A stretch of DNA of 64,000 bases from Desulfonatronovibrio hydrogenovorans DSM 9292 (GTDB lineage Bacteria > Desulfobacterota > Desulfovibrionia > Desulfovibrionales > Desulfonatronovibrionaceae): the NCBI RefSeq assembly GCF_000686525.1, contig NZ_JMKT01000008.1:1-64000 (forward strand). The letters are read 5' to 3'. Both the position numbers and the translations under genes were made by a program. Below are positions 2,694 through 23,900 of the stretch, one piece after another (within the stretch, counting starts at the first letter, position 1; the number at the start of each line of letters is the position of its first letter). Under the pieces are notes generated by a model that was given only the letters and a program-made list of their open reading frames with translations, had not been told where the DNA came from and did not search any database.

Positions 2694-3070
2694 ATTGCCC
2701 CTGTCAATTATTATAATTTAATTTATTATAATGAAATTTATCTTTACCGGTGTTGGGCTGGATCGACTCTTGCCTTGGTAAAAAAAGCTCGGTTCCTGAG
2801 CATAGGGATACGTCCAGCCAGCCGCAGCTGCCAGGAATGGTGGTTTTCATGGTCAGACCTACAGGCCCTCAGGGCAGGTCCAAAATACTTTGGCACCCCC
2901 ATGAAATCCCCTGGAGGGGACTCCGGCTCCATTAAGGTGACCATAGGGTGACCCCAAGTGGTTCCGTATCAGTGCCCGGTGACAGCTGCGCCTCACACTG
3001 CTAAACAAGGCCTGCTCAAGGCTGCTACTCATGCCAAAGGCAAGGCGTCTTGAAATATTTGGCAGATAAT
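2694..3070. other. Gene-free stretch upstream of the ATPase gene
   Basis: AT-rich just before the ATPase start (2708-2745), then about 300 bases of mixed composition. Short open frames on both strands lack ribosome-binding sites and recognisable domains. I see no RNA gene or repeat unit here until 3081. Confidence 0.4.
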
Positions 3071-3080
3071 GGAACCTCTT

Positions 3081-3107
3081 ATCAGCGTCAATCAGCGTGA
3101 TCTGCGG
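3081..3107. repeat. CGCTGAT-type repeat, copy 5 (inverted arm)
   Basis: ATCAGCGTCAATCAGCGTGA followed by TCTGCGG: the complementary-strand form of the arm, with no partner arm immediately upstream. The same form recurs in copies 8 and 11. Confidence 0.65.
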
Positions 3108-3197
3108 TTAAACCTCTTCTGTCCTTGAAATCTTCCGCAGAGCATAGGTGCCCTGCTGCCGGGAATAGGAAAAAAGCAAAGAGCAAAGAAATTTTTT

Positions 3198-3225
3198 GCC
3201 GCTGATGGCGCTGATTCCCGCTGAT
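3198..3225. repeat. CGCTGAT-type repeat, copy 6 (left arm only)
   Basis: GCCGCTGATGGCGCTGATTC plus CCGCTGAT; no right arm follows. The following sequence to 3310 has no recognised feature. Confidence 0.65.
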
Positions 3226-3310
3226 CATCCTTATTTCCTATGAGGATTTCCTAATACCAGTCCACTGGGTAAAAATTATGATTTTAATAGATAAAAAACC
3301 AACAAAAAAA

Positions 3311-3392
3311 CTTGTCTTTGTAACTCATTTTTCTTGTCTTTGTAACTGCCAATTACTTGTCTTTGTAACTCCTCTGTCTTTGTCTTTGTAAC
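3311..3392. repeat. Four iterons of CTTGTCTTTGTAACT, 22-23 bp period
   Basis: CTTGTCTTTGTAACT occurs exactly at 3311-3325, 3333-3347 and 3356-3370. A fourth, slightly changed copy ending TTGTCTTTGTAAC is at 3379-3392. The starts are 22 to 23 bp apart, about two helical turns, so all copies face the same side of the DNA. This layout is typical of iterons at plasmid-type replication origins or of multi-site operators. No Rep gene is seen nearby. Confidence 0.75.
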
Positions 3393-3398
3393 ATAACC

Positions 3399-3447
3399 GT
3401 TTGGCTAAAAAATTAGAAAAACTGAAATCTCTTATTTTTTGCCAAAC
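3399..3447. repeat. Inverted repeat in AT-rich DNA next to the iterons
   Basis: GTTTGGC-T-AAAAAA (3399-3412) pairs with TTTTTTGCCAAAC (3435-3447), 13 base pairs with one bulged T and a 22-base loop. It lies between the iterons and a strongly AT-rich stretch that continues to about 3600. It could be part of an origin-like or operator region. Confidence 0.55.
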
Positions 3448-23258: not shown

Positions 23259-23289
23259 AAAAAAAAGCCCCCAGATCTCTCTGGGGGCT
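23259..23289 (-). terminator. Intrinsic terminator of the distal tRNA-derived unit
   Basis: AGCCCCCAGA, loop GAGA, TCTGGGGGCT, then eight T on the minus strand. It is a copy of the tRNA-Asn terminator with compensatory changes in the stem (AGA/TCT instead of AAA/TTT). Confidence 0.85.
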
Positions 23290-23297
23290 GTGATTTC

Positions 23298-23376
23298 TGG
23301 CTCCCCGGGACGGACTCGAATCACGCCAGGGCGTGACAAGCCGCCAATCACGCCAGGGGCGTGATTAACAGCCACC
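23298..23376 (-). pseudogene. Altered 3' half of tRNA-Asn, distal copy, with two hairpin insertions
   Basis: On the minus strand the copy reads GTGGCTGTTAA (anticodon arm), then a palindrome TCACGCCCCTGGCGTGA in place of CCACTAGG, then TTGGCGG, then an insertion CTTGTCACGCCCTGGCGTGA, then the rest of the T arm, the acceptor strand and CCA. The 5' half is absent and replaced by the GIY-YIG gene. It cannot fold as a tRNA. The TAA inside the anticodon loop is the stop codon of the GIY-YIG gene. Confidence 0.85.
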
Positions 23377-23619
23377 ACCTTCCAAAAACCTGCCTATGCC
23401 CCGTTTTTTGATCTTGCGCTCGATCTGAATGGCCTCGGACCGGCTGGAAACCAAAGTACTCCAGACCAGATCCCAAGGACCCTTGTGACGTTTGGTGGTC
23501 AGAGTCAGGTTTTGTTCACCGGAATTGTGCTGGGCAATACGCCTGGTTAGGTCTTCTGTCTGGCCGCAATAATAACGTCCTGTTGACCTGCTTTGCAAAA
23601 TATATACGGTAAACGCCAT
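23365..23619 (-). CDS. GIY-YIG domain protein fused to a tRNA-Asn copy
   Basis: An 84-residue single-domain GIY-YIG protein. V-Y-I-L at 5-8 and Y-Y-C-G at 16-19 form the GIY-YIG motif; Arg26 and Arg27 follow in TEDLTRRIAQHNSG, and the downstream Glu is in the IQIERKIKK helix. Length and order match small UvrC-like GIY-YIG ORFs. No ribosome-binding site is visible before the ATG, which follows a terminator T-run closely. The last codons and stop (GGTGGCTGTTAA) are tRNA-Asn anticodon-arm sequence, so gene and tRNA fragment form one unit. Nuclease activity is expected from the family; a homing-like role is inference. Confidence 0.85.
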   Translation of the reverse strand: MAFTVYILQSRSTGRYYCGQTEDLTRRIAQHNSGEQNLTLTTKRHKGPWDLVWSTLVSSRSEAIQIERKIKKRGIGRFLEGGGC

Positions 23620-23625
23620 ACAAAC

Positions 23626-23654
23626 AAAAAAGCCCCCAGATTTCTCTGGGGGCT
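23626..23654 (-). terminator. Intrinsic terminator of the proximal tRNA-derived unit
   Basis: AGCCCCCAGA / TCTGGGGGCT stem with a GAAA loop and a T-run on the minus strand; second copy of the tRNA-Asn terminator. The GIY-YIG start codon lies only a few bases beyond it. Confidence 0.85.
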
Positions 23655-23662
23655 GTGATTTC

Positions 23663-23740
23663 TGGCTCCCCGGGACGGACTCGAATCACGCCAGGGCGCG
23701 ACAAGCCGCCAATCACGCCAGGGGCGTGATTAACAGCCAC
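23663..23740 (-). pseudogene. Altered 3' half of tRNA-Asn, proximal copy, with two hairpin insertions
   Basis: The same structure as the distal copy: GTGGCTGTTAA, palindrome replacing the variable region, TTGGCGG, second hairpin, then the tRNA 3' end with CCA. One base in the second hairpin is changed (GGCGCGA for GGCGTGA on the plus strand). Confidence 0.85.
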
Positions 23741-23787
23741 TAACCTCCCTCAGAGATCAGCTTCTGACAAAATATATCCTGGTAAAG
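23741..23787 (-). pseudogene. Deletion remnant of a GIY-YIG gene
   Basis: Between the tRNA-Asn terminator and the proximal tRNA copy the minus strand reads CTTTACCAGGATATATTTTG, which aligns with the start of the intact GIY-YIG gene (GTTTACCGTATATATTTTGC), and then GAGGTTAGTGGCTGTTAA, which aligns with its end. About 200 bases of the middle are missing and the frame is broken. Confidence 0.65.
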
Positions 23788-23816
23788 TAAAAAGCCCCCA
23801 AATCTCTTTGGGGGCT
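23788..23816 (-). terminator. Intrinsic terminator of tRNA-Asn
   Basis: AGCCCCCAAA, loop GAGA, TTTGGGGGCT followed by T4-5 on the minus strand, nine bases after the encoded CCA. Confidence 0.9.
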
Positions 23817-23824
23817 GTGATTTC

Positions 23825-23900
23825 TGGCTCCCCGGGACGGACTCGAACCGCCAACCTAGTGGTTAACAGCCACCCGCTCTGCCGATTGAGCTACCGGGGA
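23825..23900 (-). tRNA. tRNA-Asn (GTT)
   Basis: 76 bases including an encoded CCA. The acceptor stem TCCCCGG/CCGGGGA pairs fully, with discriminator G. The D arm is GCTC-AATCGGCA-GAGC, the anticodon arm GGTGG-CTGTTAA-CCACT has anticodon GTT, and the T arm contains TTCGAGT. It lies downstream of the betaine transporter operon with its own likely promoter, and is followed by terminator and tRNA-derived tandem units. Confidence 0.97.

Follow-up and report, generated by a model that had tools for sequence, protein, structure and literature searches.

A candidate minimal mobile element with an Slx1-like GIY-YIG nuclease that may rebuild the bacterial tRNA genes it splits

tRNA genes are classical landing sites of bacterial mobile DNA, and the known elements that rebuild the tRNA gene are, to our knowledge, kilobases long and use integrases. 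Classical REPs are moved by RAYT transposases. The tRNA islands of Islander use tyrosine integrases, with subsites in the anticodon loop and the T loop (PMC4383910). A duplicate of the C-terminus of the host gene accompanies the fungal mitochondrial mORFs, i.e., those in atp6 of Allomyces and in atp6, atp9, cox2, and nad3 of Glomus; the displaced native 3′ part stays nearest to that of empty relatives, and the nucleases are mostly LAGLIDADG, that of the Glomus atp9 mORF being GIY-YIG (PMC3630166). SegB of T4/T6 is a free-standing GIY-YIG homing endonuclease encoded next to tRNA genes of the phage; it is reported to cut tRNA-containing DNA and to drive the tandem amplification of a tRNA-segB segment (PMC13096335). 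GIY-YIG homing enzymes are assigned to the UvrC+ lineage, and a prokaryotic Slx1-like GIY-YIG lineage (UPF0213) has been characterized (PMC1564403).

In the 64,000-nucleotide stretch of the Desulfonatronovibrio hydrogenovorans genome that was analyzed in this study (the window), a tRNA-Asn gene is followed by what is, with a probability of about 0.68, a minimal nuclease-driven mobile element of ~315 to 390 bp that would rebuild the tRNA gene split by its own entry. Judged from the sequence, the sole gene of the element is an Slx1-like GIY-YIG nuclease of ~80 residues, and each unit runs from a tRNA 3′ part through its own terminator, the nuclease ORF, and a short tRNA 5′-side fragment to a hairpin. 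Comparison of genomes shows that the element enters the tRNA gene at the anticodon arm or the T arm, that the tRNA is rebuilt with the 3′ part and terminator of the element, the native ones being displaced downstream behind the hairpin, and that the units grow into tandem arrays. Movement would take place through cleavage by the nuclease.

As in mORFs, an endonuclease ORF is found in a conserved gene, a replacement 3′ part is brought along, and the native 3′ part is pushed downstream. The mORFs, however, have a mitochondrial host and a protein gene as the target, whereas the present element targets a bacterial tRNA gene, has a minimal Slx1-like nuclease, carries a terminator, and shows a hairpin in place of a tRNA arm. 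With tRNA islands, the element shares a tRNA that is split and regenerated, a displaced fragment at the far end, the same subsites, occasional tandem arrays, and a strong excess of 3′ over 5′ fragments (PMC4383910). Those islands are much longer and have an integrase gene of their own, whereas the present element is ~350 bp, its displaced fragment bears a hairpin, and only the 84-codon GIY-YIG ORF, with no tyrosine or serine integrase, is found between the tRNA and the distal fragment. Because an integrase is absent and the nuclease falls outside the homing lineage, the element works like mORFs and tRNA islands and belongs to neither. SegB likewise adjoins tRNA genes but is phage borne, leaves the tRNA neither split nor rebuilt, and has no hairpin end. 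In REP/RAYT (TnpA-REP) systems, as here, the nuclease gene lies between short palindromes of a kind dispersed in the genome (a hairpin is 3′ of the gene in most of our loci); the enzyme there is a Y1 HUH transposase, whereas here it is a GIY-YIG protein, and the palindromes (TCMCGC../TCCCGA..) lack the GTAG tag and are tied to tRNA genes. The UPF0213/prokaryotic Slx1-like proteins (PMC1564403; PDB 1zg2 and 1ywl) are the best profile and fold match and are also stand-alone minimal domains, but they are described as repair-type stand-alone genes, and the tRNA link is absent in 22/22 of the other GIY-YIG genes sampled. Among the open-access papers searched, none describes a GIY-YIG element in a bacterial tRNA gene or a link between GIY-YIG and REPs; as far as the searched literature shows, a tRNA-splitting GIY-YIG element is undescribed.

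The whole tRNA-Asn/GIY-YIG array of the window (23259-23900) is on the minus strand (Table 1). By its sequence, it is one complete unit plus one unit with a collapsed ORF behind the intact tRNA-Asn, in agreement with the earlier note, which had described two units, each composed of a GIY-YIG gene (one intact, one of ~47 nt), a tRNA 3′ part, and a terminator. The ends of the 47-nt remnant read TTTACC..ATATATTTTG..AAGC on one side and GAGGGAGGTTAGTGGCTGTTAA on the other, and 123 nt are common to both units at 96% identity. The tRNA-Asn 3′ halves assigned to both units are present but are not plain, since REP-like hairpins replace parts of the anticodon and T arms: the fragments read GTGGCTGTTAA, then TCACGCCCCTGGCGTGA in place of CCACTAGG, and later TCACGCCCTGGCGTGA directly 5′ of TTCGAGTCC. 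The 3′-terminal 23 nt of tRNA-Asn (with CCA) are 100% identical in both fragments, and the alignment score of 23 is far above chance (at most 11 for other isotypes and at most 9 for shuffled sequences). The stop codon TAA of the GIY-YIG ORF is formed by the copied anticodon-loop positions 36 to 38 of fragment 2, and its start codon lies no more than 8 nt past the U tract of terminator 2. Many ORFs of the family, including that of the window (23619), begin a few nucleotides past a terminator U tract without an evident Shine-Dalgarno sequence. The three terminators of the window are members of a 64-nt repeat family with three copies; the compensatory change noted previously consists of a single pair, which is A-T in copy 1 (CCCCCAA..TTGGGGG) and G-C in copies 2 and 3 (CCCCCAG..CTGGGGG). 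One more covarying pair is contributed by the terminators of tRNA-Asn in the same genus (CCCTCAG..CTGAGGG).

Table 1. Features of the tRNA-Asn/GIY-YIG array in the window
Feature	Position	Strand	Basis
Intact tRNA-Asn(GTT), target gene	23825-23900	-	ARAGORN; Rfam RF00005, E = 4e-14
Terminator 1 (stem 23794-23815 + U tract), 3′ of intact tRNA-Asn	23789-23815	-	Sequence
47-nt remnant of first GIY-YIG gene (ORF start and end only)	23742-23788	-	Comparison with intact ORF
tRNA-Asn fragment 1 (GTGGCTGTTAA..., T arm, acceptor, CCA) with two hairpins within	about 23663-23741	-	Sequence
Fragment 1 hairpin TCACGCC/GGCGTGA at the place of the anticodon arm 3′ side	23713-23729	-	Sequence
Fragment 1 hairpin at T arm, one mismatch	23686-23701	-	Sequence
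Terminator 2 (stem 23632-23653 + U tract)	23627-23653	-	Sequence
Intact GIY-YIG nuclease gene, 84 aa, Slx1/UPF0213-like	23365-23619	-	ORF; PF01541, E = 4e-16
tRNA-Asn fragment 2 with two hairpins within	23298-23376	-	Sequence
Fragment 2 hairpin TCACGCC/GGCGTGA at anticodon position	23348-23364	-	Sequence
Fragment 2 hairpin TCACGCC/GGCGTGA directly 5′ of T-loop TTCGAG	23321-23336	-	Sequence
Terminator 3 (stem 23267-23288 + U tract), distal end	23260-23288	-	Sequence

A copy of the upstream tRNA that reaches its final bases is located 3′ of the ORF in 28 loci, and at the left edge of this copy a perfect hairpin (stem of at least 6) is observed in 24 of the 28, compared with 11% at random positions in the same loci. 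The copy begins at recurrent tRNA positions (35, ~43 to 47, or 53 to 60); these lie within the anticodon arm or 3′ of it, or else within the T arm. The 5′-side junction of the fragment varies from tRNA position 1 to the anticodon arm, and the left border is thus not a fixed att-like point. Clean swaps of an arm for a hairpin are frequent and are seen, for example, in tRNA-Arg (L108; AGCA[TCTGCCTTCTAAGCAGA]CGG to AGCA[TCCCGATTTGTAATCGGGA]CGG), tRNA-Ala (L126; GAGCG[CTACGCTGGCAGCGTAG]AGG to GAGCG[TCCCGATGCATCGGGA]AGG), and tRNA-Pro (L115; CATCGCG[CCTCGTTTGGGACGAGG]AGG to CATCGCG[TCACGCTAAAAGCGTGA]AGA).

Several arrangements depart from this layout. Tandem copies of the 5′ half of tRNA-Asn, in units of ~96 to 98 bp, are located upstream of tRNA-Asn in G001 (L157), G005 (L142), and G009 (L144); they have hairpins at the D loop or the anticodon loop and no adjoining GIY-YIG gene. 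The tRNA-Ser locus L124 (~1300-1850) is a mirror image, in which a displaced 5′ half with a palindrome is followed by the GIY-YIG gene and then the intact tRNA. In L097 (~1300-1850), tRNA-Asp fragments with hairpins lie on both sides of the GIY-YIG gene without an intact tRNA, and this is perhaps a unit shifted away from a tRNA. ARAGORN scored the hairpin-bearing fragment of L004 (373-457) as a second tRNA-Asn beside the intact gene, and such fragments are thus a cause of false tRNA annotations.

The catalytic residues of the nuclease (Y6, Y17, G19, R27, H31, E67, and K71) are invariant across 28 members. In a profile search of the PDB, the closest matches were UPF0213 (1zg2; 1.5e-12) and SLX1 (4e-9), and I-TevI reached only 0.019; the best structural matches of the AlphaFold model (pLDDT of 87) were also 1zg2 and Slx1. 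The PF01541 domain, the catalytic residues, and the Slx1-type fold place the 84-residue product in the Slx1/UPF0213 lineage of the GIY-YIG superfamily and, with I-TevI far weaker, outside the UvrC+ homing lineage. Pairwise comparison of the ORFs (NG86) gave a dN far lower than dS wherever dS could be estimated, which indicates purifying selection on the ORFs. Because of the invariant residues, the profile and model matches, and the low dN, the product is a conserved enzyme of the prokaryotic Slx1-like lineage, not of the I-TevI homing lineage, and is presumably active.

The D. hydrogenovorans genome carries one copy of the GIY-YIG gene, and among 61 relatives close homologues were found only in G009, G014, and G018. 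Ten close relatives were picked up in a scan of 84,980 species genomes; they come from Desulfobacterota, Hydrogenedentota, and similar metagenome bins, and nearly all of those with upstream sequence are directly 3′ of tRNA-Asn. The phylum-wide searches covered 395 genomes of the window's phylum, 25 of which gave a match, and 296 Bacteroidota genomes, 80 of which did. A protein tree of 91 GIY-YIG genes comprises an Asn clade, a sister assemblage (mostly Bacteroidota), and other GIY-YIG subfamilies; the tRNA isotype (Asn, Asp, Ala, Val, Arg, or Pro) follows the clade and is clustered on this tree, the forks of which are poorly resolved with 80 aa. A same-strand tRNA is upstream in 47/58 assessable loci of the two clades (Desulfobacterota, Hydrogenedentota, and Bacteroidota), so that in related genomes the gene does lie beside tRNAs, as would be required of a tRNA-targeting element, and not away from them. 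In the Asn clade, the tRNA is tRNA-Asn in 22 of the 27 assessable loci; in the sister assemblage, 25 of 31 are behind Val, Asp, Asn, Arg, Ala, or Pro tRNAs. The other GIY-YIG subfamilies in relatives have no such tRNA (0/22; Fisher 7e-12 for the difference), and a tRNA link for all GIY-YIG genes was therefore rejected. The distance between tRNA and ORF is mostly 11 to 110 nt, up to ~400 nt with intervening units, and the strand is always the same. Ten of the 91 loci are cut off by a contig edge beside the tRNA, as a repeat would give, and tRNA fragments are nonetheless present in four of the loci scored as having none (L038, L085, L091, and L097).

In Pseudomonadota, the nearest genes belong mostly to another GIY-YIG subfamily and have no tRNA. 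Four loci of another subfamily in this phylum (L189, L193, L195, and L198) are located behind tRNA-Leu, tRNA-Ala (two loci), and tRNA-Ser, with long palindromic repeats between the tRNA and the gene (CTTCGCCCTTCGGGCTTCGC in the tRNA-Ala cases); they have no downstream tRNA fragment and were left out of the counts. In L041 (~3200-3400) and L043 (~2800-3400), tRNA-less GIY-YIG genes are located between palindromes with the core TGAGCTTGTCGAA. The 50,697 phage records searched contain no match, a pattern scan of IMG/VR found no relative, and a plasmid search gave four weak matches (38 to 47% identity); phage or plasmid cargo was rejected on these grounds. A group I intron was also rejected, since the Rfam scan found no intron family and the upstream tRNA is complete with its own terminator.

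Occupied and empty sites of the same genus could be compared. For tRNA-Asn, the flanks of G009 (occupied) and G015 (empty) align at 75% over 1.0 kb upstream and 84% over 1.0 kb downstream; in G009, a new terminator follows the intact tRNA-Asn, and the native terminator of the G015 type follows the distal tRNA fragment. For tRNA-Ala, the empty sites of G799, G789, and G474, in the genus of G623, have the native terminator ACCCTTGTAAA..TTTACAAGGGT, which in occupied G623 is located 3′ of the distal fragment; directly after the intact tRNA of G623 comes AAATACCCAAACAG..CTGTTTGGGTATTTT. The latter terminator is common to the elements of G623, G756, and G803; the native tRNA-Ala terminator of G756 has diverged, and G803 has two tandem units. 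Two members of the window's genus, G002 and G004, have the same upstream region and tRNA-Asn but lack the element. In 15/26 loci, the similarity between the proximal and distal terminators does not exceed that of shuffled sequences; in the other 11, including the window, the two are similar. Arrays can be longer: G747 has 5.0 copies of a 315-bp unit (99%) behind tRNA-Asp, and three units are behind tRNA-Arg in G718. Together, the site pairs and the terminators show that a new 3′ end is supplied and the native end displaced, and that the units can also multiply in place. The earlier note had proposed a small mobile element that targets the tRNA, supplies a 3′ half of its own, and displaces the native end; this is supported by G009 and G015 for tRNA-Asn and by G623, G756, and G803 against G799, G789, and G474 for tRNA-Ala. 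Its further claim that insertion occurred at least twice in the window holds as far as the presence of two units; the second may be a tandem amplification. The terminator differences were rejected as proof of two insertions because all three terminators are of one lineage, and duplication in place is thus possible there.

Many host genomes contain scattered palindromes of the same form as the element's hairpin (57 in G009, 60 in G061, and 49 in G062; the reversed pattern, used as the control, gave ~0 matches). In the window's phylum, at least 5 palindromes are found in 20/25 genomes with the nuclease and 42/370 without it (p 1e-13), and in Bacteroidota the medians are 12 and 3, respectively (p 4e-12); this is a correlation among related genomes, in which phylogeny is a confounder, and the thresholds were set post hoc. 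G315 (101) and G371 (122) are rich in palindromes without this subfamily, and in the window genome the matches number only 8, of which at least 5 belong to the element. The idea that AATCACGCC..GGCGTGATT is a repeat abundant in the window genome was rejected, its matches being only the element's own copies. Paired REP-like hairpins, ~47 bp apart within a longer repeat with the ends CAGGCTGTGGATAAAC/GTTTATCCACAGCCTG, were observed in G061 (L050/L064). G206, G299, G315, and G371 have many TCCCGC..GCGGGATT hairpins and no match to this GIY-YIG subfamily; these hairpins may be due to another mobilizer or to a gene since lost.

A mechanism of the following kind can be proposed for the nuclease-driven element. 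The nuclease would nick or break the tRNA gene within its arms; being inverted repeats, these could fold out as hairpins or cruciforms, which would suit a structure-selective enzyme of the Slx1 type. Host recombination across the tRNA sequence would then copy the element in, in a homing-like manner. A hairpin of the same kind as the host's dispersed REP-like palindromes would take the place of the arm in the displaced copy, which would consequently be neither a tRNA nor a fresh target. Against this reading we count the intact tRNA, whose anticodon arm is retained next to the nuclease gene and would have to escape cutting, the variable junction on the 5′ side, and the single lineage of the three terminators in the window. 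A more far-reaching idea, which we hold to be doubtful, is hairpin exchange as a new mode of mobile DNA: the Slx1-like GIY-YIG protein would recognize hairpins, swap the anticodon or T arm of a tRNA gene for its own hairpin end, and spread both itself, within a unit that restores the tRNA, and the dispersed REP-like hairpins of the host, so that GIY-YIG genes would be unrecognized mobilizers of several bacterial palindrome families.

The alternatives differ in what they take to be moved, and by which enzyme. The GIY-YIG protein might chiefly move or exchange short palindromes, tRNA genes being favored because their arms are DNA hairpins that can be swapped for a mobile one. The near-exact replacement of tRNA arms (as in tRNA-Arg, above), the like palindromes dispersed through host genomes, and their greater frequency in hosts of the nuclease would fit such a role; nevertheless, we consider it unlikely and keep it as a rival to the main claim, because the evidence is a correlation confounded by phylogeny with thresholds set after the data were seen, because G315 and G371 are rich in palindromes without the gene, and because the window genome has few copies. 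It is still less likely that a small circle carrying the tRNA 3′ block enters the tRNA gene through a single crossover, in the manner of tyrosine-integrase islands, catalyzed by the GIY-YIG protein or by a host or phage integrase in trans. Repeated integration of a circle would give exact tandem arrays, and the architecture is that of tRNA islands with the same anticodon-loop and T-loop subsites (PMC4383910), but the element, with 84 codons only, has no integrase, and the position of the 5′ junction is variable. GIY-YIG enzymes are nucleases, and we know of no strand-joining activity among them, which also counts against a circle.

In a reading without mobility, tRNA ends would have been duplicated locally in tandem on either side of a resident GIY-YIG gene that serves a housekeeping or RNA function (e.g., cutting of tRNA at the anticodon loop); this could account for the loci, including the window, in which the proximal and distal terminators are alike. 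This explanation is very improbable, being largely refuted by the empty sites in the same genus; the unrelated terminators in 15/26 loci, the patchy presence of the gene (25/395 and 80/296 genomes), and the switches of tRNA isotype on the protein tree also argue against it. That the arrays are assembly artifacts is scarcely credible. Although 10/91 loci break off at a contig end next to the tRNA repeat and metagenome bins make up many of the records, the copies have diverged in sequence, and the loci occur inside long contigs (the window contig C8, 737 kb; G747 C1, 3.86 Mb; G803 C1) of many independent assemblies. The tRNA fragments are thus not peculiar to one strain, the outcome that would have spoken for an artifact, but recur in dozens of unrelated assemblies.

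On the preferred reading of a nuclease-driven element, one 80-residue nuclease and ~350 bp would reach the same outcome as the integrase-bearing elements, across three or more phyla and six or more tRNA isotypes. The element would rank among the smallest self-contained tRNA-targeting elements and would be a bacterial counterpart of the mitochondrial mORFs. It would offer a tractable system for insertion driven by a nuclease alone and would account for some of the tRNA fragments called by gene finders in the neighborhood of tRNA genes, such as that of L004. Through the link with hairpins, the origin of some REP-like palindromes would become testable.
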